From: Hoplostethus atlanticus
Lineage: Eukaryota; Chordata; Actinopteri; Trachichthyiformes; Trachichthyidae
NCBI GenBank assembly: GCA_034670405.1
Contig: JAXDDX010000048.1
Coordinates: 1,984,001-2,048,000 of the forward strand
Reading direction: 5' to 3'
Length of the DNA: 64,000 nucleotides
Shown here piece after piece: positions 4,469 through 64,000 of the stretch. The notes below the pieces were generated by a model. That model was not told where the DNA came from. It did not search any database and worked only from the letters and a program-made list of their open reading frames with translations. The position numbers and the translations under genes were made by a program. Positions within the stretch are counted from its first letter, which is position 1; every line of letters begins with the position of its first letter.

Positions 4469-4469
4469 G

Positions 4470-10075: not shown

Positions 10076-10084
10076 AAAAAGGCG

Positions 10085-10390: not shown

Positions 10391-10409
10391 ACACCACCAT
10401 CCCCCCCCC

Positions 10410-10537
<128 letters not shown>

Positions 10538-12339: not shown

Positions 12340-12620
12340 AGACCGCTCCAAATGAAAATCACAAATTAATTTGCAAGCCTTTTTTTTTTTTTTAAAGCAC
12401 CATCATCACATCAGTTGCATTCAGGACCAGTGTTCCCACTAAGCTGATAGTTTGGTCACCCAGGTCTGGTAATTTATCACGTTGACTAAATAATCATATC
12501 AAGTCCTGTCATCAGTCATTGCTCCACTTTCTCCCCATAAATTCAGTCTATTTATAATCAGCAGGTCTGGAAGCTTTGATGGCAAATCATACTAGATGCA
12601 GGGACTTTGTCTTAAGATTC
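12340..12620 (+). repeat. Interspersed repeat F, copy 2
   Basis: See the phrases listed for 8060-8290. This copy has ACCAGTGTTCCCACTAAG and ACTAGATGCAGGGACTTTG. Confidence 0.55.
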
Positions 12621-12849
12621 AGAACTGGCTCTCCGAGCAAGCAGGGACCAGCTGGATAGAAGAAGGAAAAAAATAGGCTCTGCTCTAAATGTATAGGCCT
12701 CTGTCATATGATTGGTGTGGGGAATGGGTGGGTAGGGGGGGGGCTGTCTGGCTTCCTATTGGAACCCGCGGAGGAATCTCTACTGCTTCTACTTTCCGGT
12801 TCTATTTTCTCCACCGAGTTGCATCTGCTTCCACTGTAGTTGTAGGGGC

Positions 12850-12932
12850 AAAGGCCTAATGCTATGACAATACTATTGCACTGCTTTAGTGGATGGTACA
12901 GTAGTGCAACATCGTCAAAGCAGCTGACCTCC
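12850..12932 (-). ncRNA. mir301: pre-miR-301 hairpin
   Basis: The minus-strand 3p arm, 12883-12861, begins CAGTGCAATAGTATTGTCAT, which is miR-301 with the T found in a fish 301c-like form. The 5p arm at 12921-12900 begins GCTTTGACGATGTTGCACTA and pairs with it; miR-301-5p has the same pattern. It lies about 330 bases from the miR-130c-like hairpin, close to the spacing of the human miR-301b/130b pair. Confidence 0.94.
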
Positions 12933-13177
12933 GCGTGCTGGACACACGCAGGAATAGATACTAGAGGCACGCAACGACGTAAAACTATATAAACTACATC
13001 AATCATACAACACAGCTGCGGCTAACTACCCTTGTGCGTTCAACGTATTAAAAAGGCTCGTGGTGAGCCAATTCCACATCTACTTGTCACGTCTAAATAA
13101 GATTTGGAAGCAGAGGAAGTTGGTGGTGGTGGTGGGGTGGAGGGGAGGGAGGGGGGTGGTGAAGGGTGGGGTGCGTT

Positions 13178-13258
13178 TTGTGTCAGCCAATGCCCTTTTA
13201 ATATTGCACTGCTCATCTGATTTCACAGTAGTACAACAGAAAAAGGGCTTTGGACAAC
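13178..13258 (-). ncRNA. mir130c: pre-miR-130c-like hairpin
   Basis: The minus-strand 3p arm, 13211-13190, begins CAGTGCAATATTAAAAGGGC, the fish miR-130c form. The 5p arm at 13248-13227 begins GCCCTTTTTCTGTTGTACTA and pairs with it. It is the promoter-proximal member of the cluster, about 1.6 kb from the predicted exon 1 donor. A C-rich tract (G-rich on the plus strand, 13119-13175) follows it closely in the RNA sense. Confidence 0.93.
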
Positions 13259-14836
13259 ACGGCTTGTCGTCAAATCCGTTCAATGCTGTTCAAATCCCCG
13301 CGTGCACGGCTGTCAGCCGCACGCTGCTAAACCCTCCGGACAGTCCGGGGCCTGCACGCGGACCTCAACCCCTCGCGACTGTGAGCAAAGCAGCAGCCGT
13401 GAAACAACTGGCTATAGGCTTGTTAAGAGTCACAATGCGGCCGTGTATACGTGCTGTAAAAGGCGTAAATAGGAGAGATAATGTAGCCGGTGTAGAGCAT
13501 GCAAATTGGAAAGAAATTAGAATTAGGAATTCAGCTCCCCTACTTGATAGCCTAACGCAAAATGAATAGTTTTAATGTAAACGAGTGGGGTATGGTAATC
13601 GATTGCAACATGCTACTATTAGGGAATTCATAAAAATTCATTTCTGGGTGTAATTCGTTCCGGTCAGCGTTATGAGGCCGGGGGGGTATTTACCACATTC
13701 AAAAAGCAGTGTTTCTTTACAGCTTCACAGAAAACCCAAGCATCGACCAGGACTTCGCCTGGAGGAAACGAGGGAGGAGAAAAACGTATATAGGGCAAAG
13801 AGCACATTCCGCGATACAATACCAGAAACCTTCATTTAATACCTACTATTCTTGTCCCTTTGGCCAAAGTGGCAATTTGAAACCCTCTTAGTTTAGGAAA
13901 CCGAGGGGCGGGTGTGTGGGGGTCCAGGAGGGGGGGGCTTGTTATTTCCAATGTTCGGAGAAGTTTACAATTAGCAAAAGTGCTCATTTCCCCCCTGCCA
14001 AACTCGGGATAAAAAAATAGAAACACACGCACAGCGATAAGCAACCGAACCGCCATTACATCTCAAAGTCACGTTTTAAAACTGATCAAAAGCGGACGAG
14101 ACCACCAGCTAAGTCAACTTTTTTTTCCCACGTTCGTCGTTTAGACAGGGGGGGGGAGCTTAAATGGGTATTGTGTAAAAACGAGTGGGTTTTTTTCTTC
14201 ATTACACATCACAGATGAACGAGGTTAGGCTACATATTTGCTTTACAGTCGAGACGTTTAATTAGGTTTTTCTCTGCGGGCTTGCTTTTCCACACACACT
14301 CCTGTTAAAACATAAAATATTGGGGGGTGGGGGGTTGAAAATGCAGCAGCCATACCGACCACACGTTCTTACGATAGGGAGAACAGCTTCGACCACAACT
14401 CCTACAAACGTAAGGAAATTAAAGTTGGGGAGGGGGGGGCGATACTAAAGACACAATTCTTTCCAAAGCCGTGTAAATTGTACATTTTGACTTAACAGTT
14501 TTTTTTACGTAGGCAAGCACACACACTCTAAAATGATTAGCCCGGGATTTCTCAAACGTTTTCAGTCTTCCATATAGGAAGATTGTAGTTGTCGATTTAG
14601 TGTTGAATTGTAGAACTATCTACACTGTAGAGGAGATAATAGTGGTGAGAGTCTAACCTAGGATTACAGTAGTCGTTCTTATACATTCTCTATTTGGGAT
14701 CATCTTTAGTGATTTTAAATTAAAATGAAATTCCTCGTTCTGCTGGGGACCCCCTAGAACACCCTCAAGGACCCCATGGAGGTCTCCGGACCCCACTTTG
14801 AGACCCGGTGGATTAGCCCATATCACAGTACTTACC

Positions 14837-35039: not shown

Positions 35040-35329
35040 TTGTGACCCGGAAGTGAATTCTCTAAACTGTCATGGCCGCGTTAACGGTTCATGCTCACAA
35101 GTAAATAGGGTAGATGTTCCTCTGTACATTACATGTGAATTAGTTATTTCTGTTCCAAAGGGTTTATTATTGCTACGACTCGATTATATATTTTGAGATA
35201 GTGAGCAGCAGATTTACGTTTACGTTTAAAGTGCAAATTGTGTGGAAACAAGCTGGCTAGAGGCTAACGCTAGCTACCTAACTGACTTGGGCTTGCTAGC
35301 ACAGCTGTCACTATACTTCATTCATCAAA
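35040..35329 (+). promoter_or_regulatory. TOP3B promoter and 5' leader region
   Basis: An ETS-type CCGGAAGTG at about 35048-35056 is followed by a short CpG-bearing stretch (GGCCGCGTTAACGG). The coding start is 275 bases downstream. No TATA box is obvious, as expected for a housekeeping gene. The transcription start is not resolved. Confidence 0.45.
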
Positions 35330-38300
35330 ATGAGAACGGTTCTGATGGTAGCAGAAAAGCCTTCCTTGGCTCAGTCAATTGCGAAAATCCTCTCCAAAGG
35401 TGAGTGCGAATTTATTGCAATAAAACATTAATTTATCATGCCACAAAGTGAGTCTCAGATGATGAAATTAACACTGGCACAACTGGCATCAAACATCACT
35501 TAGCTATGTGTAAAGACTATTAAATTAAACAAGTCTATTTTGACAAGTTCATTGGGGTCATTGTATTATCATTTCTGTAAATTCAACCAATTTTGGAAGT
35601 AGATTTCTTCAAAATCTCTTCGCATACGAGGATTGTAGTCAGTATGTATGGAAAGAACGATGGAAAGAAGAATTAAATACGACCTTGCTAATCGACAAAG
35701 GTATGCACATCATTTAACATGACTTGAGACCTTTTACGAACCGTTGGGGGCTACTGATACAGTCATGCTTGAAAGTTTGTGAGCCCTACATGAGGTCAGT
35801 ATTTCATATAGAGGAATAAACTTATCTAAATCTCAGGTCTTAATGAATCCCAAATAAAGAGCATGCACAAATAAAATCAATTTGAAACAATTTAATTTTT
35901 TTATTTAACAAAATTGGTTTAACAGAAACTGCAAAAGTATGTGAACTCCTTCAGTCAGTAACTTGTGGCTCCTCCTTTATCAGTGATGACTTGGAGTAAT
36001 GGTCTCCTAGAGCCACTGATCAGTCTCTTCATCTTCCTGGAGGGATTTTCTCCCACTCTTCCTGACATAACTCAACCAACTCAGTGAGGTTTGAGGTCTC
36101 AGGTGAACAGACGCTTCAGGTCCTTACAGCATCTCAGTTGGATTTAGGTCAGGACTTTGATTTGGCCAATCCAAAACACTAAACTTCTTCTTCCTGACAC
36201 ATTCTTTGGTAGATTTGCTTGAATGCTTAGGATCACAATGCCATCAGATGCAGCAATGGAGGCTTGTAGAACTCTGGATGTTATTTTTACTATTTTAATG
36301 TTTCTTGTGTCTCTTGGTGATATTTTAGAAGGACATCCACTTCTAGTCAGAGTCTCTGTCGTGTTAAATTCTCTCCATTTGTATATTATTTGTCGCACAC
36401 TGGACTGATGGAGCCCAAGTGTTTTTGATATGACTTCACTACTGCCCTGTATTTTGATTGAAAATAGTAACGGGAGTGACAAGAGAACCTGCAATAATTT
36501 ATTTATTAGCCGTTTTGTGCATCAGATGTATAATGAATTGAAGACTGGACCCTGTGGGCTTAGAAAAGGTCTTACATTATGTTCTACAATGTATGTACCA
36601 TTGCTGATAAGCAAGGCAACATTAAATTGCCAGAAAGTTTAATGAAAATTGGCAAGACATTCTCTATATACCATACTGGAGAACGGCACATACTGGGGCT
36701 ATACTATCATCAACAAACAGCAATTTCTGTTTTTAAATTAATTGAGTTGAAGATGAATTGATGATACATTTATAAACTCTCAAGAGCTTATACATGGACA
36801 CAAGAATGATATCATTTCATTTAAAATGTCTTTAATTGCTATGGCTAGCTGTTAACAGACATGTATTGAGTGCTAACATTTTACATGTCTTTCAGAAACA
36901 AATGACACATGAATTGCTTAAGTGATTTCAGAAATTGGTATCTTTCCCTCAGTGCTCCTTCTGAACTAATATACATTCTCAACCTTGGTGGAATACATCC
37001 TAAGTAGACATTCAAGCAATCCCACTCAGCTGTTTCTGGAAGTGGCACATATACACGCTATGTTGACAGACTCAAACTCAAGAGAGTAGCTGGCTTTGGG
37101 GAAGCAACTGGGGTTTTTCTTGAGGACAGGCATCCTCAGGGTAATGGGGACGGTCTCCAGGGTGGAGGCGCTGTCCACCCCGCCGCAGGAGTGGCTGGTG
37201 TGGCAGTTGGCCTCGTGGATGATCTGAGGCACCCGGTTCAAGTCAATGTTCTCCCTGGTAGGAGATCAGGAGCAGGGATGGGTCAGAAAATTCTAGCATT
37301 CAGTCTTTCCTTCAGTGTTTTGCATGTTTGTTTTCATTAAAGTTTGATCTAGTATTATCAAATTTAATCTTACGACTCTTAGGTTAAAAATGGTGACAGA
37401 TATAAGGGAGATTCTGAGGATAAAAGTCTATTGACAAGTTACATTACATTACATTACAGTTATTTAGCAGACGCTTTTATCCAAAGCGACTTACAATAAG
37501 TGCATTCAACATAGGTAGGCAAGAAAACTACTAGTCACCAGAAATCGTAAGTGCATTTCCTTCCTAAACAAGCAACTAAGAGCATAACTAGTGTTAAGTT
37601 AAGAGTGCAATAAGTTAGCAACCTACTTTATCTTAAACAAATGAGACAAATAAGAGAATCAAATAAACAAGAGCTAAGACAAATAAGTGAACCAAATAAG
37701 CAAGAGCTAAGACAAATAAGTGTATCAAATGAACAAGAGCCAATAAACAAGAGCTCAGACACATAATTGACGACAAATAGGCAAGGCTAAGAGGAAGAGT
37801 CAGGGTAGTGTTTCCTGAAGAGGTGGGTTTTCAGCCTGCGGCGAAAGATGGGCAGCGACTCAGCTGTCCTGACATCAGTGGGGAGTTCATTCCACCACTG
37901 CGGGGCCAAGTGATATAAAGGCATGTCGAAGGCTGCATGGTGGTGGATACTCACACGTAGCTCCAGGCGGCAACGCTGCGCTCATTGATGCGGTGGGGCA
38001 GGTTGACTAGCTGGCTGTAGTAGTCCTGCAGGCTGTTGGTGCAGAAGGACTCATCCACACACTGGCTGCCCAGCGGCATGGCCAGGCACTGGTGGAGGGC
38101 CAGCAGGCACAGCAGAAAGAGGCGCAGCAGCTGAGGATGGAGAAAACCACCAGTTAAACATCCCTGAGTCGTGATGTTATTACAGCCCCGTCATGAGCAC
38201 TACAAGATTTGTTTGTGCATGTCTGACCACAGCAAATGAACAATGCTGTACAGCTGCTGTCTCCAGTCACAGTGTTGTAGGATTTGACTGATAAGGCTTT

Positions 38301-41300
38301 TTAGGTCAATACCAATATTTTTAGCTGATAGTGTGCCAATATTCAATCTTTAAATTTACCATTTTCATGCTAAAAAATGACCAGTATTTCCTCCAGGATT
38401 TTATTCTTGTTAGGGTTAGCAGCTTGGTAGGGTGGCCCACCATACCTATTCAGTGGTAGGGAAACTCTGGGATGCATTACTGCCTTTAAATTAACAATTA
38501 CTTTACAAAACAACATTACAAATTTCATGCCAGGGTTTCCATTCTGTTTTTATGTAGCTGTGGTCAGGGAGGAACCTCCATCATATCAGGTGGACGACAT
38601 TGGATCTGCCAATATCAGCCCGATGTACTATTGCCAAGAGCCATTGATAATTAGAACTTCTTATGTGATTTTCTTTGCTCAAAGTTACGGCTGCATAGCC
38701 TGCAAAACCTGCAAAAATTCTGTACAAAGCTTAGACAATAGGCAGCGTTCCTACACAGGTCTGGAAAGTCTGGAAATGCATGGAAAACACGTTTGGTAAT
38801 TTCCAGGTCTTGATAAGTTTTGAAATTGCACAAAAACTTTGGAAAAAAAGTATGGAAATATATTGTTGTACTGTCCTGCTCTACGGTTTTAGACCCTGCC
38901 ATCTGACATGATTTTGATGTATAGAGTGATATGACAGAGTTAGTACGACAAGTTCTGTGTATGTCATACTGAACAACAAAATCATCAAATCAATAAATTA
39001 AACTCTGGAAAAAGTATGGTATTTTGGAAGCTGTAGGAACTGAATAGCTGCCTGGAAACAGAACAAAGGCAGTGGATGAAAATAAAACAAAATAGCCTAT
39101 TAGAACCTATTACAGGTTGTAAACTAAATAAAAAGGCAACCTACTACAATATATAAACCAAAACTAAATTAAACCTTCCTACCTATTACAAGCTACTACA
39201 GGATATAAGCCAAATCTAAATACAAAATTGCTCTACTGCGGCATTCTACAGGATAAAACCCCAAACAAATCTGCTCTGGAAACAACCCTAGCGTAACACG
39301 TGGCAGCAGCCAGTCGCACGGCTTCAGCCACCACCATCATCACCATCATCATCATCACGGAGGCTGGCATCTCACCTGGAGCTGTTCCATGGCTTGAATT
39401 GTGGATGGGGATTGGCGTGCTGTGGCTTCTGTTGGGGAATTGGATTTTTTTTGCTGGGTCCTCGGGTGTTTCTCTTGGGGCTCAAAGTTGATCTTTGTCT
39501 CGGACCTGGAGCTGGCTCTATTTATTCTCCCTGGCCTCAATGGGATTCCCACTGGTCCACGGCAAGGTTGATGGGGGTGGGTGTGAGTGATTGGGGCATC
39601 CACTTCAGACAGGGCCTGAGTGGCATTGGGGGTCGGGGGCGGTTATTCGTCACTTTCATTCCTATCACAATGGTCTCTGTCCATGTACCCCCTATTAGCA
39701 TTTAGCCTTGAGAGAGCCATTTCATTCAGAGAGGAAGTCACCACGCAGCATTAGGCAGCAGGTAACCAAGGCAAACCCCCCACCCCACCCTCCTCTATTG
39801 GGAAAGAGCTATTGGAGGCCTCAGCACCACTCTGAAGTCCTGTAAAACCCCAATTTCCTGGCCTAATGCAATTAATTAATGACTAATGCTATTTTTTTTA
39901 GAAAGGATAACAATGATGTCATCATTATGTAAAGTTTTGACTGAGTAGTGACATTTCTTCAAACTTTGTAGTGCAGCTGGCTGTGACATTTTGTCATTTT
40001 CATCTTAAAAATGGTCACCTGATTTTATTTTTCACACGCTAAAATACTGTAATCCATACTTTTTCCAGTCATGTTCATGTTGAAATTGTTGGATGCATAT
40101 TTTCATATCACCCCAATTTGCTATATTCTTATTTGTTTATTTTTCTTCACTGTATCTATCACTGTTGGGTACTGCAGCAGCTTGTTAAAGTTTCATCTTA
40201 TGTCACCTTTTGTTGCTTTCAGTTCCTATTGATCATAGTTTTCAGTGAAACAGCCTCTAAAATCCTGAGCCTTACCTTTTTAAAGTCACAGGGAAACAGC
40301 ATTTTCTGGCGTTTGTTAAATGTTAACTTATGATATGGAGAATTGGCAAACAAAGTGAAAAAAATATTTTTCATTTCATTGTGACTTTAAATAATTGCCC
40401 ATATAATTAACCAACTGCGTTCTCATCCGTTCAACTTCAGGAAGTTGTTCAAGTCGCAAGGGACTCAATGGCGCATGTTCAGTGCACGAATACACTGGCA
40501 GCTTCCAGGGCCAAACTGTACGCTTTAAGATGACTTCTGTATGTGGACATGTGATGAGCCTGGATTTCATCGGTGGGTATTACCCATATTACATTCTGTT
40601 TCCCCTTTTAATACTTTTGCACCCAAATGTAATGTTCTTTTTGCCCGTACGTTATGGTGTCACATGCAGTTCTGTATGGGTGATACATTGCCTGCTAGTA
40701 GTAAGGTGGCTGCTTCAAATCCCAACCAATCTCATTAATAACTTCTTGGCCAAAATGTCACTCTCTAGATGAATATTACTTTTAATAGTGAGTGTGGCGC
40801 CTAAAATTTCAAACTGAAATGGGTTTGGAAACTGCATTTTGTGTTGCTGCCCTGGGCGCTCCAAATTGAACATGTCTCAACTTTGGCATTTCGTCTATGT
40901 GAAAATAGCCCTTCAAACAGGGTCTATCAAGGCAGAGCTCTTAGATGAGATGATGATACTTCCCATGTCATATACCCACATCCTCCATTTCAGAATGGGC
41001 TCCTCATCCTCTTTGGGACCAAGCAGAGCAATCGCTAACTTTCTCTGGTCCATTTTTATTTTCAACAATTCTATCCCCTTTGTTACTTCAGGTTAGCACG
41101 CTAATGCTAACTAGATAGCTTGAAGTTGTCAAACTTTGTGTTGCATAGCAACCAGAACGCTCCTTGCGTTCTCTGACCTCTTGCTCTCTCTGTTACTAGC
41201 GATGCTCACAGCTGAACTTGTATTTGAGTAGGACATAAAAGATTATCTGATCATGGGCTAAGGCGAGCTAATCACGGTTATCCAACACAGAAAGCAATTA

Positions 41301-44300
41301 CTTGTCATATGCCGTTGTGGTTTCATCTTTCCCTTGGAGAGAAAAAGGTGTATGTTCATTACCCTGGTCTTCTTTTTCAAGGGAAGTACAACAACTGGGA
41401 CAAGGTGGACCCTGCTGAACTCTTCAGTAAAGCCCCCACAGAGAAGAAGGAAGCCAACCCCAAACTCAACATGGTCAAGTTCCTCCAGGTAGATTTGTGG
41501 CTTATGATTTGAAGGCGACCAATTTATTGTTTTAGGGCAATATAGCATTTTATGCTATACAACATAGTGAAAAACATTTTCCGCACACTTGGATCCAATC
41601 CAATTTACATTTATTAAGCCAAGCTTTGGATCTACAAGACCTTCATTAGAGAATACATGGTGCACAATGCACAGGCAAGCAGGGGTGGAAAGACCCTAAA
41701 ATACCCTACTCAAGTAGATGTAGTTACTTTGCTGAAATTGTACTTAAGTAGAAAGAGAATTACTGGTGTAACAATCTACTTAAGTAAAGTTGCAAAGTAG
41801 AACATTTAAGTAGTAAGTTAAGTTACTGAGTTACTTAAAAAAAGGCATCTTAATATTAAAGGATATCTTAATATTTTTTATAGACTATGTTGATCTCCTA
41901 AAAATAAGTTCATGTCATTGTTTAATCTGTGATTAAAACAAAAAGTATGCAGCAATGCCAATACATTGATTATTTTGCTATTATTTGTTCAACTAGCTAG
42001 GAAGAAAAGAAAACTTGAACGATTATAAAGCCAGGCTAACGTAAACCAAGCTAGGTAGATGTTAACTAAGATGTTACTGTTAATGTCACACTGCTTTCAC
42101 TTCTGATTTTCACAAACTACAATACCCAGGTGGTATTATGTCATGTGACCAGGTGTTGACAGGTGTGCATATGGCCAATTACATGTTTGGGATGTATGGC
42201 TATGTTATACTTTCATTGTGTGCCATGCATGCTCTGATGAAAGTCCTATAGACCCAAAGCTTGGGTTAATAAATGTAAATTGTATGGATCTTATGCTGCA
42301 TTGACGTCATGTTGGATTTACTGTAAATCTGCTGAGCTGCTGTCTAAGGAAAACAAATGTTGTCAGCCAAAAATAATTTTGGATGTGGGAGTTCCAACAA
42401 CTTAAACACGTGCACACTTCCAAGTTGTAGCAATGAGATGTCATCCCATTCTTTTACTTAAATGAGCAGTATTGTGTCAGATGATCTTTTTAACCATGGA
42501 TTCGACTGGTTCTCCAGCACTCCAGGCATGGTGGCCTGTTATTGACCCAATAAAGTGACAGTGATCAGTAAGCTAGCTAATTTTAGCAGAGACCCAACAG
42601 AAATGTCTAGTGAAGAGGTAATCTATCACCATACAAATTACTGACATAACAGTACTGTCTTTAAAAATTGTCCTTCAAAAATCCATAATCTCTCAGCCTC
42701 AGCTAATGATGGCTAAAACCATCAACCTTTGGTAGCCTCTGCATCATCCTACAATTGCATCTTTGGAATATCACTTAAATTGTCTTTAACACTTTTTCCA
42801 CAATTTCTGATGTGATCTCATGTCAGGTTGAAGCCAAGGCGTGTGACTATGTGGTTTTATGGTTGGACTGCGATAAAGAAGGCGAGAACATCTGTTTTGA
42901 GGTAATCTTGGTAATCAAAATCTAGTTTCTCGTTGTCTTGAAACCCAGAGCTGTAAAACTATTATATTATAGATTATTCTAGCTAATGTATAATGCTCTG
43001 CTGCAAGTTGTGGTTTAACTATGTGGGCTGGGGGTATATCAGTGGCACAGAGAGGTCCCTTCTTAACCAACTAATCTGGTTAAAATATGTCAACTTAACC
43101 CAGGTAAATTTATACTCTGATTATGAGAAACCTGGTTAAGATGCCTGGCTTACTCCCATATTCAACAAGTTACAATGTCATGGAAACCTCTTATTGCTTT
43201 CACTTTCACAGATGTTGATGAACCAGAGTAAGTATTGCCTGTAACTTCAGGTTATTTGCCAGGGGCGTCACGAAGATCCCTCAAATTACTATATATCCTG
43301 TATTAGAAGTAAGCTATGATTGCTCAGTAAAAGAGGGATATTCTATTAACTGGTTTATTCGGGACAACCTGGAGACTCATATCATAGGGTATCATAGGTT
43401 CGTAGAAACAGATTTGCCCTGAATAAAACCTTCACCAGCATGTGACCAATAGCTGGTTAGTCCACATGGCAACATAGCTACTGATATATTTACCTTTTTG
43501 AGTGCTCATTCACCATTTCTCTTGCCTCCCAGGTCTTGGATGCCATTCAGCCAGTGATGAACAAGCCGTACGGCAGGGACCAGACCATCTACCGGGCCAA
43601 GTTCAGCTCCATCACCGACACTGATATCTGGAACGCCATGAACCGTCTAGGAGAGCCCAACCGCAACGAGGCCCTGTCGGTCGATGCTCGTCAGGAGCTG
43701 GACTTACGCATCGGTTGTGCCTTCACTCGGTACACAGCTACCCACAATCACAGACACACTGGTTCTGCCAGGCTGCCATGCTGCGCTGGATTTCCATTGC
43801 TGTACCATACATATTTTGGAGGGACCTTTCGGTGTCCCTATTAGCTGTGGTTCCCAAATCGTGTTGGCCACATATGGTTATGGCTCTTTTCAGCCTGCCC
43901 CGGCACAGTGTTGTCCGTGGAGGCCAAGAGTCTGCAGGTTTTCATTCCATCCAAACACTCAGCAGTTGATTTCAAGCTCCTCCTCTCTGGTGTTAATCAG
44001 TGGAATCAGCGACTGTAGTGTTTGGTGGGAATGAAGTCCTGGGGTCTTAATATACGTTGTTATGCGTTGTTGTGTCCTCCACAATTCAAACCAAAGGGTT
44101 TACTTGCCAGAGTTTTACTTGCCAACTAGGTAAGCTCACACTCTGATACTGAGAAACCCAATAAGATGCCTTTCATCTCTGCAGACTCTTGGACGTTGAG
44201 GACACATGGTTGAAAACCACTGCTCTAGAAAACTGTGTCTCGGATGCTTCTTTAGATTAAATCCATGTTCATTCAGCACAATGTGCTTCAGGTTTATTTA

Positions 44301-47300
44301 ACTGGGACCGTATGTATATTAAAAACAAAAAAATCAAAGAAAACTTGAATTCTGTTGCACTATAGAGCAATGGTTCTCTACCATATTCCACCATGACCCA
44401 ATAGTTGGCAAGTTTTCATTCCATCCAAACACTATAGCAGGTAATTTCCTTGATGACACTTTCAACTAGAGAGGAGGTCATTGAATTTGGCTACAGTAGT
44501 GATTAGTTGGAATGAAAACCTGCAGACTTTTGCTCATGATGCCAGAACCCCATTTCCAGTCCATGAGTTACATTACAGTTGATCCAAGGCAATGCTAAGT
44601 GTGACCTTTACCTTTCTTTCTGTCTGTCAAATATATTTCAGTTTCCAGACCAAGTATTTCCAGGGTAAATACGGCAACCTGGATTCTTCCCTGATCTCAT
44701 TTGGTCCCTGCCAGACCCCAACGCTAGGCTTCTGTGTGGAGCGCCACGACAAGATCCAGTCCTTCAAACCAGAGACATACTGGGTCCTGCAGGCGAAGGT
44801 AAGATCCCCGTTGTCAGCGACCTCCTTATAATACAAATACTCTCTCCAGCCAGGGGTATAGTGACAGACATGCTGTGTTTTGTGTCAGGTGTTCAAAGGA
44901 AAGGACACCCCTCTGATGCTAGACTGGAACAGGGGGAGGGTCTTCGACAGGGAGGTGGGTCAGATGTTCGTCAACCTGGTCAAGACCTCCAGGGAGGCCC
45001 GGGTAAGAACAGACCTCAACACTGTAGAATGTATTCCAAGTTGACTGGCAATTAAAAATGGAACCAATATGAGGTGCGGTGCATTCCCAAGAGTAAGCAG
45101 CAGCACAAGACACTCAATGAGACAAAACAAGAACCCCCTGTAGAAGGTTCTGCGAATTGTTTACCCTCTGAATACATTTTAAGTTGCCAAAGATCAAGGG
45201 ATTTTAAATTGGCCAGAAAATGACAACAGAATTATTATATACATCCTGTCACCCAACCCTAAGGCTAAACTGATTTTGAGCTCACCTCACTGACGTCTGA
45301 TATAAGCTGTGTAATTCTGCCCTCAACTACAGGTGGAGTCTGTGAGTAAGAAGGAGAAGGCCAAGCAGAGGCCACAGGCCTTGAACACAGTGGAGATGTT
45401 GCGAGTGGCCAGCTCTGCCCTAGGTGCGTCAGCAGCAGTTAGAATTAAACATATGCAGTACTTAGCAATTAGTTCTCGCTGTGGTAATTTAGTTTATGAG
45501 TTGGGATTTGTATTTGAGTGTTTGATACGTGCAGTTTGACCCTCAGTGATCCCAACAATAGATTAAATGTGGGTGAATTCATGTAATAGTCTATTGATAT
45601 GTCGTCAGTAGTCAATGCTGGAAAAATGGACATAATTTCAAATAATAATTCATTGGAATTGTTGTTTTTGTGCCCAGAGATAGTCGAGTGGTTGACTTAC
45701 TAACCTCTGGAGCTACACGTATGCTCCAACTGGCCTGGGGTGGGTTTCCCAGATAGCGATTGATCTTGAAAATTCAGATTTAGACTGGCAGAGTCCTGTA
45801 GCCTATAAAAAGAGGTTCACCTGAAGTTTCTTGCTTACAACATGGCAGAAGATAAAAAGAGAAGAGCAATATTTCCAAACAGGAAATCCAGTGTTAAAAA
45901 TATAGATTTATATAGCGTTGTAGAAAAGATAAAGGACTAGCTTTTTTTTCAAGTATGGAATGCTGGGGCCGAAAGATGATGCAGATCATGCTTTTGACAT
46001 GTTGTGGAGTGCAGGTTAAACAGCAATCTGTGCCGGCAGTAAAGGATCTTAGGCCTAGACGCCACCTGCAAAGAGATAGATGAAATCTCACGACTAGCAC
46101 CAGGTCATGGTGGACGAACGAGAGATTTCACGTACTATGTGAGTTGAGACATGTGGGAAACACTTGTGAAATTCATGTATGTCTTGAAGAGTTACTTAAA
46201 AATATACATGCGCTATGATGCCTTTTGGGAAACCCACCCCTGATTAGTTCCCTGTCTTTATATCTCAGCAAACAGAGGGCGTAGCTTTACAGTATTCAGT
46301 TATAGACTGTCTTGGCTTCAGCAAGCTTACTTTTGATACCTACAGAAAATGCTGACAAAAGTCAACAGTAGTTTAGCTTAAATAATTCTGCAAATCCACA
46401 TTCACCCACTCACAAAATAATAATCAATGTTTGTGAGGCATAGCATTCATAGCACATGAAGAATATCAGACTGTGTGCAGGTCTTAGATTAGATATTAGA
46501 TTATTGTATCTAAACTCAGTAAGCCGACAACTCGTCCGGTATTCAGACTAGCTGGGGGCAACATTATGTTGGAAATGACGTACGCAGAATATGACTGGTT
46601 CAATTATGAACGAGGCGTGACATGGCTGATGTTTTCGATGTCTCAGGTATGGGTCCTCAGCATACCATGCAGATTGCAGAGCGCCTGTACACGCAGGGCT
46701 ACATCAGCTACCCACGTACCGAGACCACCCACTATCCAGAGAACTTTGACCTCAAGGGAACCTTGAAGCAGCAGATGAACAACCCCTACTGGGCACAGGA
46801 GGTGAGAGCCACCATGGTGCCAAGGATACAAAAAATGAACTGATTCATTCAAGGCGAGCAGCGCATGGAAATGTAAACACACTCATGGGCCTTGACTGTA
46901 TTTATGCTCACGGGCACACAGTCTGACTACTAACGATAAGTTTTACCTCGCCACCAGGTGAAGGCTCTGCTATCGGCCGGATTGAACCGACCCAGGAAAG
47001 GAGCGGATGCTGGAGACCATCCTCCCATCACCCCCATGCGAGCTGCCTCAGAGGCAGAGCTGGGTGGGTCATAGCTGTATTTGTGCCATGTTGAAAATCT
47101 CAAAAGTCATCAATACCTATTGTACAATGTACAAAATAAGATAGCTAGCATCCACATATTGGCTGTTGCAGGGAATGTAAAAGATTTAGATTCTATAGTG
47201 AACCACTCCCTATTCACCCCTCGACTAAGGAACTTCCTGTTCTTGCCTTCCCCATAGGAAGTGACGGCTGGCGGCTGTATGAGTACATCACGCGACATTT

Positions 47301-50300
47301 CATTGCCACCATCAGCGAGGACTGCAAGTACCTGCAGACCACCATTGACTTCAGCATTGGCACCGAGGCCTTCTCATGCAGCGGCAAGACCCTCATATCA
47401 TCAGGTAAGGCCTGCTGGCCAGACCCTCAGCTTAGTATACCTCATCCTCTGGACTTGCCGTTTGTTTGTTTTTTTAAAGCTGCACAAGGCAACTTTGCAC
47501 GTTTGCGGCTACAAATGGCAGCGAGAGATAACTGTTGGAAGACTTTTTGAAGTTCAATACTCAGAAATCATTTAATGTGACGTCAGTAAACTGCACACAG
47601 CATGCTAATCAGTGTCCACATTTAACATCTTGTCTCACCTGCTGGTAAGCTAAAAGAGCAAAAGCCAAATAACTCTTTTCTATCCTAGTGGAGTGGCATT
47701 TAAAGTTCGCCCCCATTTCTCACTTGGGCTATATTGTGTCACTGTAAAAACAAAACCTGAATTTCATGACATATTAATGCTGCATCTTTAAGTTATCAGT
47801 GTTGGACAGTAGTGTTGCTACAAGTAGTGGCGTTACTAGTTTAACTACATTTCTCAGTAGCGTGGTGGTAGCGTTGCTGTTTTCTGAATCAAATAGCTTT
47901 TCAGTAGCGAAGCTCTTTTATTGGTCAAGTAGTGCGGTAGCGTCCACACAAGCTACATTTTCCCAAGCATTCCTGAAGCTCAAGCGCAGCGGCGCTTTCT
48001 GCTGCGGTCTGAAATAAAACTGCTAAGGATCAGTAAGTGACGCCACCGCCATACACGGACCTGTATGTGTAGCCGACAGAAGCACTTCCGTATGACGGTG
48101 ACATCACGTACCAATCCTTGGGCTGATGCCAGCGACTTGTCTGCTGCAGGCGAATACAGACCCGCAAGCTTGAGTTTACTTGATGGAAAAATGGCAGAGG
48201 GTGAGGACGGAGAGGAATTGATCCCGAGGGAGTCGCCCTGGCCGTACCTCAAGCTAACACATGAGTTTAAGTGAAACAAATGATGTGTTCAGGTGCTTAC
48301 TGTGCAACCCGAAGAAGAAGCTGCTCTCATCTTCCAAGACCTCAAACACTAATTTAATAAACAATTGAACTGAACATTTTTTGCCTGCCTATCTGTTTGA
48401 CTGATCAGCATTGACTTGGAATGGAGTTGGTTAAATGTAAAAAAATAAAATAAAATAGCTTTGATGTAGTAAACTACTTTTGCCATGTTGCTGTAGCTTA
48501 GCTTGCTACATTTCTCTGGGGGGTAGCTTCACTGTAGTGAAGCTTCATTTAATGTAGAGTAATGTAGAGCTTAGCTCACTACACTTTCCAAGTAGCTTGC
48601 CCAACACTGTAAGTTACAGTGAGACATTTTGAATATATTTGGCTCTAATTTGACCTTTCATGCTAGGAAGTCTTATGTCAGGTCCCATACATGTGAATGG
48701 GATTTTAGGTGTAAGGGTGATTTCTGTTTCAAAAATGCTGGAGCACAGTGAGGAATTGCTAATAAAAACTCAAAATGTACTCTCATTATATTTTTGTCAT
48801 GGCCTGGCTAACTGTGTAATCCATCCACAGGGTTCACGGAGGTGATGCCATGGCAGGGCATCCCTCTGGAGGAGGCCATGCCAGGTTGTGAGCGTGGAGA
48901 CACTTTCACGGTAGACGAGATCAAGCTGGTGGAGAAGCAGACCAGCCCCCCGGACTACCTGACCGAGGCTGAACTAATCACCCTCATGGAGAAACATGGC
49001 ATCGGTATGCTTTTACACTGGACATAAGAGTGACTGTGTGTGTGTTTGAAGGAAAGGGCATGATATATTGAAACTGGAAAGTGATATAGAAGGAAAGAAG
49101 TAAGGAAGGCAAGAAAGAAGGAACGGTTGATCTCTGTACAGTATATGTTAGTCCAAATGGCCTCAAGATGTCACTGCAATTCATGTGTATTTACTTGCAT
49201 TTTGAGTCTGAAGGTGGCCCGTTCAAATCCTTGGAGGAAATCTTTCCTACATACAGCAAGAAGTGGCTAGATGAAGCTGTGTTTGGATGTGATGGATTAC
49301 TTCCTGAGTGTATACAGAACAGATACAATCAAAGTTGTTTTTTTTTAGTGCTTGTGCACTAAAGTGAATGGTGGACTTGGACATTAAGTCTGAGAGGTTT
49401 GAGATGTACTAAGTTGATTTTAACAACAAAAAAAACTATTTTTCACACATCTGAAGAAGGAAGGCACTGCATCAGATGCAGTCTTCGACCAGGATTTCCT
49501 TCTAGGTTTTGAAAAGGTTGCATTCAGACTCCAGAAGCAAGTAAATGCAAATTAATTGCAGTGACTTCTTGAGGCTGTGTGGCATTGCCACAAGAGTTAG
49601 CGGGAATACAGCTTAGTGTGATAGGTTTATGAAAACAAAGCCTTGCAAGGTCAAACCTCACCATGTGTTATCTTTATCTGCCTAAATTAACTATATTTGT
49701 ATACTGGTCAGCTTTCAAGGACTAAATAAATCAGACTCAAGGTTATCCAGGTGAACAGGGGTGATGTCCCTTTAAGAAAGGTAAGCCTGGGAGAACAAAG
49801 AGAGAAGAGAGAGAGAAGAGTTTGACAGGGAAGAAGAGAGCTCTGTCTTTTGGGGCATATTCAGCCATTCATAATTTGAAATAAATAAGTAGCTGGATGA
49901 GTTCGAAGAAGACCAGGAGAGAGGAGCACGGACCGTCAGTAGCGGAAAGGATTCAATGCCAGGCCGGGATCTAGAGCGTCCTGACACAACCACCAATGAG
50001 GTTGATCCTTTTGGAGCTATTCTTGTTTTTTTGGATGCAATGCATTGCTGTTTTTGGGGATATATTTTTGCATTTTGAAGGGGGAGCGCCAAACGCTGGA
50101 TGTGACAACTTTTAATATATAACTAGGCTTTGAGAAGTAGCTGATTGTTTGTGGGGGGCATATGTTCACTACAGGTAAAAGCTCTTATATTGCCCTCTTC
50201 TCTCCTTCCTCCAGGTACTGATGCCAGCATCCCGGTCCACATCAACAACATCTGCCAGAGGAATTATGTGACGGTAGAGAACGGACGCAAGCTGAAGCCC

Positions 50301-53300
50301 ACCAACCTGGGCATTGTCCTGGTGCATGGTTACTACAAGACAGGTCATTGCCTTATGCAGTTGTAGTGTTTTTTAAATTGTGAAAATGGCCCTAAAGTTT
50401 CTGTACAAACCAGTGTTTCCATTTTTGAAATGATACAAGGACAAAGCAGTTATAGTATATTTTGCCCTTCAATTTATGCCTTGTTGGCCTTCTCTGTATA
50501 TATGCTTATGTGGATGTTTTTTCTAGATGCGGAGCTGGTACTGCCCACCATACGCAGCGCTGTGGAGAAGCAGCTGACTCTCATTGCCCTGGGCAAGGCC
50601 AACTTCCAGCAGGTCCTGCAGCACACACTGGACATCTTCAAGAGGAAGTTCCACTACTTCGTGGACTCCATCAACAGTAAGTCGGCTGCAGCTGTAGGAT
50701 GGCTAGGACATGAGAGCAAGAAGCCCATTGGTTCGAGGTGTTTTTTTACAAGAGGGGAGACACGCACAAGATTTTTAGCAGGTGCCGGAGCATAGTTGCT
50801 TGCAAAATAGCGTAAAACACTGCACAGTGTTTCCAATGCTCCCGAAGATTTTAGTAAAGGTTGTTTAATATATAAGTTTGCGGATGACACAGTGGTGGTG
50901 GGCCTGATCTCCAACAACGACGAGAAGGCCTACCTGGAGGAAGTTGCTGATCTGTCACTCTGGTGCCAGGACAACAGCCTCCTCCTGAATGTCACCAAAA
51001 CTAAGGAGCTGATTGTGGACTTTAGGAGGACACAACAACAGAGGACGTACTCACCACTGGGGATAAATGGGACTACTGTGGAGAGGGTGAGCAGGTATAA
51101 ATACCTGGGAGTCAACATCACCGAAGATCTGACATGGTCCACACACACTGTCACTCTGGTGAGAAAGGCGAGGCAGCGCCTTTACCACCTCAGGCAACTG
51201 AGGAAATTCAAAGTCTCCCGGAGGATCCTTCAGTCCTTCTACTCTGGAGCTGTAGAGAGCATCCTGACAGGAAGCATCACTGCCTGGTTTGGCAACAGCT
51301 CCGCTCAGGACAGGAAGGCTCTGCAGAGAGTAGTGCGTTCGGCCGAGCGCACTATTGGAACTACACTCCCCACCCTGCAGGACTTGTACACCAGGAGGTG
51401 CAGAACCAGAGCCTGCAGGATCATGAAGGATCCTCACCACCCCAACAACGGACTGTTTCAGCTGCTGCGGTCAGGCAAGCGCCTCCGTAGTCACGCTGCA
51501 AAAACAGAGAGACTGAGACGGAGTTTCTTTCCTCAGGCCATCAGGACTGTGAACTCCGACCTCACCAGGGCCCCCACCAAGACACACACACTGCCCCTCT
51601 TATGCACACACACACACTTAGGTAAAGACTACACATAATTTATAATTTATATTACACATACAATTTTCCCTTTTTTTACTATATTTTTTTATAAAGTGCT
51701 CTTATTGTAAATATTGTGTTGTTTCTTTGACATTGTAAATATTGTGTTGGTTTATTGTAAATAGTGTGTACCTGTTATTTTGCACATTTCTGCTGAGCAT
51801 TGCCACTTTGCATTTCACTACACACCTCGTGTGTGTATGTGACAATTAAACTCTTGAATCTTGAATCTTGAATCTTGAATCTTGAGAACACACGTTTACA
51901 AGTTACATTAGTCATTTTTAGCAGACGCTTTTATCCAAAGCAACTTACAAAGGTGATAGGTGACACTGTGGGGATCGAACCCACAACCCTGAGACTGAGA
52001 GTCTCATGCTCTACCTACTGAGCTGTTTACAATGTTTAGACCCTAAATCTTGAAGACAATGTTTTGACCCTGGGTGTTGAAGATAGACAAGACTTGTCCA
52101 TTCCAAAATGTGCATTTTGCTGTGTGACCCAACATCTGTTAAGTTTCAGAACACTGACAGCTAACCTGATATTATCCTTTACAATTTCGTGATACAATAT
52201 GGAGTTCATTGTTGCCTTGGTGATGGTGAACTGTCCATGCCCCGAGGCAGCAGAGCAGCCCCAAATTGTTGTGCTACCTCTCATGATTCACGGTTCAGAT
52301 GAGGTTTTGGTGTTGATATTTGGCAAAAAGTTGTTGTGTTTTTTGCACCTGTAATACTTCTGACAGAGTGGTAAATACCCAAAAAAGTCCCAAAATTATT
52401 AAAAGATGGACAGGACCAAAACATATGGATCAATGAGGCAGGGGCCTGGAGACACCGATTGCATATTAGATCTATCTTTGGGTTAATTTGTGAGTCTGAC
52501 CTTGGTCCAATGGGTGCGGTGGAGCAGTTTGCACTGGTTTATACCGTGCCCAGCACAAAAAAGGAAGAGTGATCATGGTGAAAAATGCTCTGCCATTCCT
52601 CCTCTGTGAATGCCTCTCCTAAAGCTTCCTCCCACAGGGTTTTGATAGAGGCCTCCTCTTCTTCTGTAGGTAATGAACGCGCTGATATAAAGCTTGCAGA
52701 TATCTGAAGAAGTGACATTTGGGAAGTGAGAATTTCTCCACTAGTTGAGATTTTTGGTGAATCAGTGGCTGGGTTTGTGATCTGAGTGAATTTAACGGGT
52801 GATATAGTATTTATTGTGGTGAAGCATTTGCATAGTTTTACTGTTAGACAATCTAATATTTCTATTTAGACACATTAGTTGAAGTTTCTTTTTTCCCTAT
52901 GCAATTCCGCCCTAGCGTATCATTCCACTGTGTTTTGTAGGCATGGATGAGCTGATGGAGGTGTCATTTTCCCCTATTGCTGCCAGCGGCAAGCCCCTGT
53001 CCCGCTGCGGCAAGTGCCATCGCTTCATGAAGTACATCCAGGTCAGTAGTGCAGCCAGTCACTGCGACTCCTATACAGTGAACCGAGTCTGCAGATAACC
53101 TCCACACCATTCTTTCTCTCCACTCTACCTCTCATCTTTAATGTCAGCATCGGACGAATTCTAAGTAGTCTCACACTGAGAATTAACTTAGCATAGCTGA
53201 AAGCCTGTCCACAGTCAGAATGAGTCATCAACATGTTACAGGTTACAGCGGCCTGAAAGTAACAAATAATAGATATATTTTCATAATAAAGACGATAAAG

Positions 53301-54076: not shown

Positions 54077-55668
54077 GGGTTGTTCCATGTGCATTGTGGC
54101 TGTACATTGCATTCATTAAATTACAAGGCACGTCCTCAATGACATCACATGTTTCATATGGCACAATCATATGGTGATAAATGCCTAAATGCCTATTTCT
54201 TTTGAAATAATAAATATATGAAATAACGACCACCCCCTGTAGGTATTCATATTAATCTTTCTGTCTCCAGGCCAAGCCCAGCCGGCTCCATTGCTCCCAC
54301 TGTGACGAGACCTATAGCCTCCCCCAGAATGGAGCCATCAAGCTGTACAAGGAGCTTCGCTGCCCGCTGGACGACTTTGAACTGGTGCTTTGGACCTCGG
54401 GAGCCAGGGGCAAGAGCTACCCCCTCTGCCCCTACTGCTTCAGCAACCCGCCCTTTCGGGACATGAAGAAAGGTGAGACACGAGCTGAGAATTGACGCTT
54501 AGTAAATTGATGATAGTAAATAAAGTAAATAAGTAAAGTATTTTTGTGACAATCCACAAAGTCTGTTATTTTTTCTTTTTTTCTGGGATTTGGTGCTAAT
54601 TTTAATGAACTTTAATTTTTTTTTTAATGTGAATTCTATTTTAATGTGCATGTGTTCTCTTCTGTCACCCCATCCCTTCCCCCTCTGCTTTCATCTGCCA
54701 TTCTCCCAGGTATGGGATGTAATGAGTGCACCCACCCATCCTGCCAGCACTCTCTCAATTCTCTGGGCATCGGACAGTGTGTGGAGTGTGACAGCGGGGT
54801 TTTGGTGCTGGATCCCACCTCGGGACCTAAATGGAGGATGGCCTGTAATAAATGCAACGTGGTGGTGCACTTCTTTGAACATGCACACAGGGTGCAGGTA
54901 AGAAGATGGCTCATCCAAGCATGCACCTTCAACTAGAGATGAGGAACTAGTCAGTGAAATTGGCTGCTGTAGCAATTTGCAGAAATTAAATCCTGCAGAC
55001 TTCTGGACCTCCATGACACATGGTTGGGAAGCACTGCTTTATTGTGCATGAGGATTTTGGGCTCTTGATGTCTTTTCCTAAATGTTTCACTGTTTTGACT
55101 GTCCAGCAAACTCTATGCAAAAAGTTGCCTGACTAAAAATGTCTGTTATGGCATGCAGCTTATTTATTTGTTATTAGCTGATCTGTAGTGTGTAGGCTAA
55201 TTTGATTTATTTTTTAAGTTGGAGCTATGAAAAGCTACCCATGTTGATACTAAATAAGGTCTTTTAAAATGTCCAAAGCCACTTTTGAATTGTCTTTCCT
55301 AAACATTTCACTATTTAGACTTTTAACAATCTCCTGACCGTACATAACCCATATACCCAGGCTCTTATTTTTCTCCCTCTCTTGTTTTTTAGGTCGCTCA
55401 GGAGAGCTGCGACGCGTGCGATGCCTCTCTGGTGGCGGTGGACTTCAACAAGACTCGCACACCGCTCCCCGCTGGCGAAACCCAGCACACCGGCTGCGTC
55501 TTCTGCGACCCAGTCTTCCAGGACCTGGTGGAGCTCAAACACGCCACCATGCGGCACCCCATGCACCGCGGCGGGGGGGCCAGGCGAGGAGGACGGGGAC
55601 GGGGACGCCGCGGCTACCCCAAAAAACCTAAAGACAAAATGGCTGCACTGGCAGCTTACTTTGTGTAG
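35330..55668 (+). CDS. top3b: DNA topoisomerase III beta (TOP3B), complete, 18 coding exons
   Basis: Type IA topoisomerase that relaxes DNA and RNA by single-strand passage; in animals it works with TDRD3 on mRNPs and R-loops. Exons: 35330-35399, 40441-40572, 41382-41488, 42827-42901, 43533-43729, 44642-44798, 44889-45002, 45333-45423, 46647-46801, 46958-47063, 47258-47404, 48831-49004, 50215-50343, 50527-50676, 52941-53041, 54271-54472, 54710-54897, 55393-55668. They join in frame to 2571 nt (856 residues; human is 862). The N-terminus [15 protein letters not shown] is the Toprim start and DCDKEGEN supplies metal-binding D117 and D119. Catalytic Tyr336 lies in [14 protein letters not shown], the same number as in human. 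Exons 15-18 carry Cys pairs (CGKC, CSHC, CPYC, CNEC, CVEC, CNKC, CDAC, CVFC) and an Arg/Gly-rich tail ending AALAAYFV. All 17 introns are GT-AG; the intron 13 donor (GTCATT) is weak. Intron 1 (5.0 kb) hosts an antisense IL-17 gene. Identity is seen directly; the partner roles are family knowledge. Confidence 0.97.
35757..36500 (-). mobile_element. Degenerate, internally deleted Tc1-like transposon in TOP3B intron 1
   Basis: The minus frame 36494-36144 has the Tc1 paired-like helix-turn-helix, [20 protein letters not shown], then [11 protein letters not shown] collapsed join to the C-terminal [14 protein letters not shown]-type end follows around 36130-36170, and further degraded transposase sequence extends to 35990. 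The left end has CAGTCATGCTTGAAAGTTTG, a usual Tc1-family terminus. The catalytic DDE region is largely missing. Confidence 0.75.
37026..39390 (-). CDS. il17n: IL-17 family cytokine, IL-17N-like, nested antisense in TOP3B intron 1
   Basis: Secreted cystine-knot cytokine of the interleukin-17 family, expected to signal through IL-17 receptors. Minus-strand exons are 39390-39376, 38130-37955 and 37254-37026. Splices are CAG|GTGAGA...CCTCAG|CTG and GT|GTGAGT...TACCAG|G, and the joined frame is 420 nt (139 residues). Residues 1-22 ([19 protein letters not shown]...) form a classic signal peptide. Exon 2 contains a WSY motif at the usual IL-17 place. Exon 3 has [12 protein letters not shown], a further Cys in [17 protein letters not shown] and the closing ACIC pair, which is the IL-17 knot spacing. 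It is somewhat shorter than mammalian IL-17A. The IL-17N assignment is inferred from sequence feel and from the TOP3B-intron location, which I recall for fish IL-17N but could not check. IL-17A/F or IL-17C type is the alternative. Family membership is firm, the subtype less so. Confidence 0.88.
37437..37935 (-). repeat. Fish interspersed repeat with TTACA tail, filling IL-17 intron 2
   Basis: A (TTACA)n tail at 37439-37458 is followed by GTTATTTAGCAGACGCTTTT..CCAAAGCGACTTACA, the tail block common to fish SINEs and LINEs and also present at 51905-51950. The rest reads through GGTGGGTTTTCAGCCTGCGG and GGAGTTCATTCCACCACTGC. It ends about 20 bases from the IL-17 exon 2 donor. Confidence 0.7.
38280..38420 (+). 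repeat. Repeat C, fragment
   Basis: GATTTGACTGATAAGGCTTT..TCAATACCAATATTTTTAGC and CATTTTCATGCTAAAAAATG match the left part of repeat C. It lies in the first intron of the nested IL-17 gene. Confidence 0.45.
39518..39550 (-). promoter_or_regulatory. Candidate core promoter of the nested IL-17 gene
   Basis: On the minus strand, a TATA-like AATAAATAG lies at 39526-39518, about 130 bases before the ATG. A kappaB-like GGGAATCCC lies at 39550-39542, just upstream of it. The arrangement suits an inducible inflammatory gene with a start site near 39490 and an unspliced 5' leader. Both motifs are short and could be chance. Confidence 0.4.
41680..41860 (+). repeat. hAT-like element end (Tol2-type) in TOP3B intron 3
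   Basis: Begins CAGGGGTGGAAAGA and continues with repeated ACTTAAGTAGA/ACTTAAGTAAAGT phrases, typical of fish hAT termini. The opposite end was not found, so the copy is partial. Confidence 0.55.
43910..44240 (+). repeat. Repeat D, copy 1, TOP3B intron 5
   Basis: GAGTCTGCAGGTTTTCATTC, CATCCAAACACT, then GGACGTTGAGGACACATGGTTGAAAACCACTG. Similar pieces lie at 44365-44545 and 54926-55045. Confidence 0.6.
44365..44545 (+). repeat. Repeat D, copy 2, TOP3B intron 5
   Basis: AGTTTTCATTCCATCCAAAC, TAGCAGGTAATTTCCTTGAT, then GGAATGAAAACCTGCAGACT. Confidence 0.6.
45735..46242. mobile_element. 508-bp element with 16-bp terminal inverted repeats, TOP3B intron 8
   Basis: The left end CTGGGGTGGGTTTCCC and the reverse complement of the right end, CAGGGGTGGGTTTCCC, match at 15 of 16 positions. 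Inside is a short frame starting [15 protein letters not shown], perhaps a remnant of a Myb-like protein of a PIF/Harbinger element. Superfamily unproven; no clear target duplication was seen. Confidence 0.6.
47797..48609. mobile_element. 813-bp hAT element remnant with 8-bp target duplication, TOP3B intron 11
   Basis: Ends CAGTGTTGG...CCAACACTG, flanked by TAAGTTAT (47789-47796) and TAAGTTAC (48610-48617), an 8-bp duplication with one change. The inside encodes RESPWPYLK and then, in another frame, [20 protein letters not shown], the start of a BED zinc finger as in fish hAT transposases. The catalytic domain is absent. Confidence 0.88.
50860..51885 (+). mobile_element. 5'-truncated L2-like LINE with open reverse-transcriptase frame, TOP3B intron 14
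   Basis: The frame opens at the RT catalytic motif [11 protein letters not shown] (FADD in place of YADD) near 50873 and stays open to a stop at 51638. It covers [37 protein letters not shown] and [13 protein letters not shown]. The 3' UTR ends AATTAAACTC followed by four TTGAATC units. The first part of the RT and the endonuclease are missing. The clade (L2/CR1 group) is inferred from motif wording. The lack of stops suggests a fairly recent insertion. Confidence 0.88.
51898..52027 (-). mobile_element. tRNA-derived SINE
   Basis: The minus strand reads CAGCTCAGTAGGTAGAGCAT (A box), then GGGTTCGATCCCC (B box). The tail block is TTGTAAGTTGCTTTGGATAA followed by AAGCGTCTGCTAAA. It sits directly after the LINE tail. 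The same tail block, inverted, is at 37459-37490. Confidence 0.82.
52040..52290 (-). mobile_element. Tc1-like transposase C-terminal fragment
   Basis: The minus frame from 52284 reads [20 protein letters not shown], then [13 protein letters not shown] and [10 protein letters not shown], the usual Tc1 stretch around the second catalytic aspartate. The following NDPKHT part is lost. Confidence 0.78.
52295..52720 (-). mobile_element. L1-like LINE, C-terminal ORF2 remnant
   Basis: On the minus strand, [19 protein letters not shown] and [16 protein letters not shown] are followed, after a frameshift, by [20 protein letters not shown]. This is the CxxC..HxxxxC zinc-knuckle-like end of fish L1-type ORF2. 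It is inactive. Confidence 0.72.
54037..54079. repeat. (TG)n plus G run, TOP3B intron 15
   Basis: About 12 TG units and then about 19 G; G-quadruplex-prone on the sense strand of TOP3B. Confidence 0.95.
54926..55045 (+). repeat. Repeat D, copy 3, TOP3B intron 17
   Basis: TTCAACTAGAGATGAGGAAC, ATCCTGCAGACTTCTGGACC and CATGACACATGGTTGGGAAGC match copies 1 and 2. Confidence 0.55.
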
Positions 55669-58223: not shown

Positions 58224-63522
<5,299 letters not shown>

Positions 63523-64000
63523 GTACTGGGACGGCGCTATACCCGTATATCCTAATCCGTTTCCTGAAGGTTTCAGGTGACGTAACACTCCCTCCGGCGG
63601 CCATATTGGAGGTCCTGAGCTCTTGGGCAACAGTGGCTGTGAACAGCTGTTTGTTTTTCTTAATGTGCAACTTGGCCGTCTCAATAGAATGGAACAGACA
63701 TGGTTCATTTCTTTGCTGTTTCTGACTGAACTGATCATTTTATCACTGATACATCAGATTGATTTTGTGTAGATAATGTCAGCTTGTTAGCTAGCTAACC
63801 ATAGTATCTGGTCAGCTAACCCTCACTGTCTTGTCTGATCTGATTAGCACACTAGCTAACGTATCTAGTAGGAGCTAGCGTAAGCTGTGGCTAGTAGTCA
63901 TATAACATGAACTAAATATGCCTGCTAGCTAGTTAGCTAGCTAACAGTTTGTTCAGGTTAACTGAGCTGACTCTTCTCCAGCTCCACCTTTTTGAAGTAG
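63523..64000 (+). other. Start of PPM1F intron 4
   Basis: Follows the GAG|GTACTG donor. Many GCTAGCTA-type palindromic tetramers occur near 63790-63950. No exon is seen before the window ends. Confidence 0.6.

Follow-up and report, generated by a model that had tools for sequence, protein, structure and literature searches.

A probable IL-17N gene nested on the opposite strand within the first coding intron of TOP3B in Hoplostethus atlanticus

Nested genes are a known class in fish genomes, with published counts of 174 among 20,796 genes in fugu and 767 among 23,524 in zebrafish (PMC2151771). A review puts the share of human nested genes that are on the strand opposite to that of the host at about two thirds (PMC4394429). 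Most nesting is regarded as neutral, although some nests are conserved exceptions (PMC3786989). The lrrtm genes described from alpha-catenin introns (PMC3933685) are whole protein-coding genes positioned antisense in a single host intron. Here we describe a similar arrangement in a 64,000-nucleotide stretch of the genome of Hoplostethus atlanticus (assembly GCA_034670405.1, contig JAXDDX010000048.1, positions 1,984,001 to 2,048,000 of the forward strand; hereafter the window, the positions of which are used throughout). A gene of the IL-17 family, most likely IL-17N, is positioned antisense within the first coding intron of TOP3B.

The closest known counterparts of the guest gene are the IL-17N genes of fugu (BAI82584.1) and medaka (NP_001191717.1). 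Each has two introns and encodes a protein of 139 residues, for which a signal peptide was called and the IL-17 domain was placed at residues 55–133 in fugu and 55–134 in medaka (PMC4517768). In the published descriptions of European sea bass and snakehead, each species has seven IL-17 ligands: A/F1, A/F2, A/F3, C1, C2, D, and N. The gene in the window is thus of a known kind and its nest is of a known type, and no claim of a first report is made. No co-mention of IL-17N with TOP3B or topoisomerase was found among the open-access papers searched, and other papers may show the nest as synteny.

An IL-17 family gene inside a TOP3B intron

The guest gene is encoded on the minus strand by an open spliced frame, which starts with an ATG at 39390, ends with a stop codon at 37026, and codes for 139 residues. 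Its exons of 15, 176, and 229 nucleotides are joined at GT-AG junctions. The exons of guest and host are positioned as follows:

39376 to 39390, minus strand: IL-17N exon 1, preferred among seven candidates, not proved; codes for MEQLQ, phase 0, donor CAG|GTGAGA
37955 to 38130, minus strand: IL-17N exon 2, remaining part of the hydrophobic leader and the N-terminal region
37026 to 37254, minus strand: IL-17N exon 3, bulk of the IL-17 domain with cysteines 81, 87, 114, 131, and 133, and the stop codon
35330 to 35399, plus strand: first coding exon of TOP3B, in-order match to the start of human TOP3B
35400 to 40440, plus strand: first coding intron of TOP3B, host of IL-17N, 5,041 bp
40441 to 40572, plus strand: second coding exon of TOP3B, donor G|GTGGGT chosen by eye
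41354 to 50294, plus strand: further coding exons of TOP3B, residues ~70–536 including SYPRTET, given as matching stretches
54256 to 54492, plus strand: C-terminal zinc ribbon of TOP3B (Pfam PF23546, E 2.7e-10)
55393 to 55665, plus strand: RGG-rich tail, C-terminal part of TOP3B, identified by eye, no Pfam match

The Pfam family IL17 (PF06083) matches residues 57–135 of the protein with a score of 64.9 bits, where the cut-off is 24 (E 9.3e-18), a similarity beyond chance. The best relatives among sequences from the PDB are human IL-17F (E 4.4e-6) and IL-17A (E 5.7e-6). An initial annotation of the window had described a complete three-exon IL-17 family gene at 37026–39390, and these coordinates proved exact to the base. 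It had set the grouping of the protein with IL-17 as one of two points on which its claim would turn; the protein groups with the family both by the Pfam match and as one of the seven IL-17 loci found in the genome. The coding structure, the family membership, and the nesting described below are shown by the sequence, and the orthology to IL-17N, the promoter, the poly(A) site, the secretion, and the independence of the guest are inferred.

Residues 4–21 of the protein are strongly hydrophobic (Kyte-Doolittle values of 2.1–2.3 over 12 residues), which is consistent with a signal peptide, and the product may be secreted. Among the nine cysteines of the protein are the four that form the knot of the IL-17 family (81, 87, 131, and 133). 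The first pair is spaced C-x5-C instead of C-x4-C. The initial annotation had named a signal peptide, which the hydrophobic leader may represent, and cystine-knot cysteines; of these, 81, 131, and 133 align with the knot columns, and 87 is one alignment column off. Exon 2 ends in phase 2 after the residues SVAAWSY, at the position of the SPWxY motif of other IL-17s.

The host gene was identified from a three-frame translation of the plus strand of 35298–50296 (stops written as X), which contains in-order matches to human TOP3B from its first residues to approximately residue 536. The first coding exon alone gives a short match to human TOP3B with an E value of 0.0052, yet it is in the right place and phase, and its junction with the second coding exon reads as in the human protein. 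The TOP3B of the window contains the sequence SYPRTET, which we take to be the site of the active-site tyrosine. Two additional frames, 50367–50792 and 54628–54933, look TOP3B-like by eye and gave nothing above the Pfam cut-off.

The guest at 37026–39390 is wholly between the first two coding exons of TOP3B, which end at 35399 and start at 40441, respectively, and it is on the opposite strand. The coding exons of the two genes do not overlap, and the IL-17 coding span is flanked by about 1.6 kb of intron on one side and 1.05 kb on the other. The placement of the gene antisense and entirely within intron 1 of TOP3B was right, when intron 1 is understood as the first coding intron; an upstream non-coding exon is possible. 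The first junction of TOP3B is the one that was worked out in full. The nest is real and is an ordinary case of a gene within a gene, and the mechanism initially attached to it was over-interpreted.

Assignment of the guest gene to IL-17N

The 633-Mb genome was searched in six frames with PF06083; all 15 candidates were scored, and the counts are lower bounds. At least seven IL-17 loci were identified, all seven above the cut-off, including the gene in the window. With exons determined by eye, the other six loci look A/F1-like (L002), A/F2-like (L003), A/F3-like (L007), C-like (L004 and L005), and D-like (L001), labels that rest on motifs, exon layout, and general features of the family rather than on named fish sequences. 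Together with the window gene as N, the six loci would make up the same set of seven ligands as in sea bass and snakehead. The A/F3-like locus (G000:C56:2817605-2817772) has an additional interruption of the IL-17 domain, where the frame stops at a CAG|GTGAG donor and a TGA is inside the profile match; the break fits the fourth exon described for IL-17A/F3 in the snakehead paper.

Given the preferred exon 1, the window gene is like the IL-17N of fugu and medaka in its 139 residues, two introns, and a domain spanning approximately residues 55–135. This is a likeness by description, not by sequence; the fugu gene is on scaffold_264 and the medaka gene on chromosome 9 (PMC4517768). In a tree built from 92 alignment columns, in which one of the five inner branches is well supported (that of the two C-like loci, 96/96), the window gene pairs weakly with the A/F2-like L003 (67/72). 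The pairing agrees with the grouping of N and A/F2 reported for snakehead. The two genes share the place and phase of the exon 2 donor and the knot, but are 26% identical, and L003 keeps SPW and GCTC and is positioned on C9, 10.5 kb from the A/F1-like gene and on the other strand. The D-like L001 has the same donor place and phase and a slightly better BLAST match than L003. However, it is 25% identical to the window protein, has a longer tail past the domain, and the tree does not group the two. Of ten pattern matches to the window protein in a single scan of viral contigs, none was a relative.

Of the fish IL-17 types initially offered, IL-17N is the best fit by length, number of introns, exclusion, and the weak tree, and the gene is most likely IL-17N. 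Several observations weigh against this reading, beginning with the fact that orthology is argued from just these four lines of evidence. The window gene has the longest branch in the tree, and BLAST ranks human IL-17F first (1.5e-5), followed by the D-like L001 (3.3e-5) and only then L003 (5.7e-5). The authors of the sea bass study relate N to D, and the snakehead IL-17N is described as a protein of 132 amino acids encoded by two exons. In place of the SPW or TPW of the seven other alignment rows, the window protein reads AAW. Near its end it has ACxC. Six other rows extend to this point; five of them carry GCxC, and the sixth, L004, shares ACxC. The first knot pair is altered to C-x5-C.

Exon 1, which codes for five residues only, is the least certain part of the gene model and is not unique. 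A scan of 38131–40440 for exons reaching from an ATG to a donor in the right phase, with at least seven of the nine donor positions matched, gave seven candidates at four donor sites. Three of the candidates, at two sites, have a donor score of 8 of 9, including 39390–39376. Two of the seven result in a protein of 139 residues: 39390–39376 (score 8) and 38516–38502 (score 7). We prefer 39390–39376, without regarding it as proved, because of its donor, the TATA-like box described below, and the length of the protein taken together.

A decaying or silent IL-17 copy would fit the changes in SPW and GCxC, a branch longer than all others in the tree, and the presence of the 3′ end of a long interspersed nuclear element (LINE) in intron 2. 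Nevertheless, the frame is fully open, the splice sites are canonical, and the knot cysteines are retained, one of them shifted by a column. The third-position G+C of 0.82 and a length equal to that of IL-17N from fugu and medaka also speak for an intact gene, and a pseudogene is very improbable.

Regulatory elements and the relationship of guest and host

The following elements were identified around and within the guest gene:

39519 to 39526, minus strand: TATA-like sequence AATAAATA, 129–136 bases upstream of the ATG, consensus match, putative core promoter
39542 to 39550, minus strand: kappaB-like sequence GGGAATCCC, 15 bases before the TATA-like box
36831 to 36836, minus strand: ATTAAA, possible poly(A) signal by consensus match, ~190 bases beyond the stop codon
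36643 (ATTAAA), 36507 and 36503 (AATAAA), minus strand: further possible poly(A) signals by consensus match
37454 to 37508, minus strand: 3′ end of a UnaL2 LINE, in IL-17N intron 2 and on the same strand as IL-17N

The 1,050 bases preceding the IL-17N ATG were scanned with ten motif patterns. They contain one copy of GGGAATCCC, one TATA-like sequence, one STAT-like sequence (40249), and four NFAT cores (GGAAA/TTTCC), which are too short to be meaningful. The standard kappaB pattern, in both strands, and the AP-1 and ROR patterns have no match there. The kappaB-like site is weak evidence: it was noticed by eye as one of the ten patterns, is the sole match in the window against an expectation of 0.32, and at least one match was found in 27 of 100 shuffles. 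The AU-rich decay motif ATTTA is absent from the 196 bases that follow the stop codon.

Since it is accompanied by TATA-like and poly(A)-like elements, the guest appears to have what an independent unit needs. We consider it probable that the gene is a teleost IL-17N that forms a separately regulated, independent unit within the first TOP3B coding intron, and that the nest is a by-product. IL-17N would be transcribed from its own promoter just upstream of 39390, spliced of its two introns, and terminated near 36831 at a poly(A) site of its own. Its product would be a secreted cystine-knot cytokine. The TOP3B polymerase would cross IL-17N on the opposite strand, and the entire guest would be removed with the spliced intron; only the TOP3B precursor would be complementary to IL-17N RNA. 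Host and guest are most likely under separate regulation, and the nest may have resulted from the arrival of the gene rather than have served as a control device.

The sequence bears no sign of either gene controlling the other. Surveys of 109 human and 752 fly pairs of host and nested genes reported no significant correlation of expression (cited in PMC3786989). The case for independence is weakened by the scope of these surveys, which cover man and fly and not fish, and by the opinion of a review that inverse regulation of opposite-strand pairs is likely (PMC4394429). This opinion favors transcriptional interference, in which polymerases moving against each other in the 5-kb intron would make TOP3B and IL-17N mutually repressive, so that induction of the cytokine reduces TOP3B output or strong transcription of TOP3B suppresses IL-17N. 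The geometry would also allow it: between the TATA-like box and the first ATTAAA, the guest unit measures about 2.7 kb and occupies about half of the host intron. However, the coding exons do not overlap, and the surveyed human and fly pairs show no significant correlation. TOP3B is important for neurodevelopment, according to a cited abstract, and IL-17N is reported to be highly expressed in the brain; therefore, activity of both genes together is at least as natural as mutual exclusion. We consider interference unlikely.

The initial annotation called the guest inducible, in agreement with published increases in IL-17N after Nocardia in snakehead and after mitogen in sea bass; the expression was reported as steady on nodavirus. 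The idea of the annotation that colliding transcription could tie induction of the cytokine to TOP3B output is not supported. It also stated that TOP3B resolves transcription-linked supercoils, which is a roughly fair description of a published role in hypernegative supercoiling and R-loops (PMC9363430), but provides no reason to link the enzyme to the guest in its intron.

The brain expression of IL-17N, which is high in several teleosts including sea bass and snakehead (PMC7178287, PMC11942210, PMC8187396), could alternatively reflect shared control in cis: an enhancer or open chromatin of the TOP3B intron would give IL-17N constitutive expression in the brain and fix the nest in evolution. 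Regulatory sequences in host introns were proposed as a reason for other conserved nests (PMC3786989). On the other hand, the motif evidence amounts to one weak kappaB-like site, and A/F1, A/F3, and D of snakehead are reported to be high in the brain too, so brain expression is not specific to N in that species. Shared control is improbable, although slightly less so than interference. The stronger form, in which the brain bias of IL-17N comes from an enhancer or open chromatin of the TOP3B intron and a neural topoisomerase and a cytokine form one regulatory unit kept across teleosts, is as doubtful as interference. Beside interference and shared control, separate control of IL-17N and TOP3B takes most of the remaining probability. 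Coupling, if true, would make the locus an attractive example of a host gene that tunes a cytokine.

Origin of the nest and other features of the window

In all six other IL-17 loci of the genome, as in the window gene, a GT donor in phase 2 directly follows the W-x-Y/W motif. Because the family intron is kept in the same position and phase, the guest is not a retrocopy, and this origin was rejected. The guest thus differs from the lrrtm genes in alpha-catenin introns: it keeps its introns, whereas single-exon guests are thought to be retroposed. The third-position G+C of the IL-17 gene is 0.82, in comparison to 0.38 over all bases of the flanking intron. The likely IL-17N of Hoplostethus atlanticus is pinned to a precise, testable position, and the first coding intron of TOP3B provides a landmark for seeking IL-17N, or for testing its loss, in other vertebrates.

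Intron 2 of IL-17N contains a tandem array at 37644–37740 (33-base unit, 2.9 copies) and, at 37787–37981, a LINE-like coding remnant recognized by eye and without a Pfam match. On the host strand, an AATAAA is positioned at 35419, about 20 bases inside the TOP3B intron, and this strand has nine AATAAA and seven ATTAAA there. The same intron contains, beyond the 3′ end of IL-17N, a remnant on the minus strand resembling a Tc1/Sleeping Beauty-type transposase (36144–36518), which matches HTH_SB with an E value of 3.5e-6 and 27.1 bits, under the family cut-off of 43.

Inside the span of TOP3B, an open reading frame of 275 residues (50811–51635, plus strand) resembles the end of a LINE reverse transcriptase (RVT_1, E 4.2e-4, below the cut-off). 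Its stronger match is to ALKBH8_N (46.1 bits), presumably a label carried by LINEs. A match of 43.5 bits to the tRNA family at 51968–52024 on the minus strand, also inside the span of TOP3B, is perhaps the head of a short interspersed nuclear element. Downstream of TOP3B, there is an exon of a protein phosphatase 2C (63268–63552, plus strand; PP2C, E 1.7e-9), perhaps of PPM1F, which we assume adjoins TOP3B in man. The frame 62870–63166 is phosphatase-like by eye and has no Pfam match. At the other end of the window, the minus strand of 4388–13259 carries precursors of the microRNAs mir-130 (4388–4469 and 13181–13259), mir-454 (6525–6628), and mir-301 (12848–12932).

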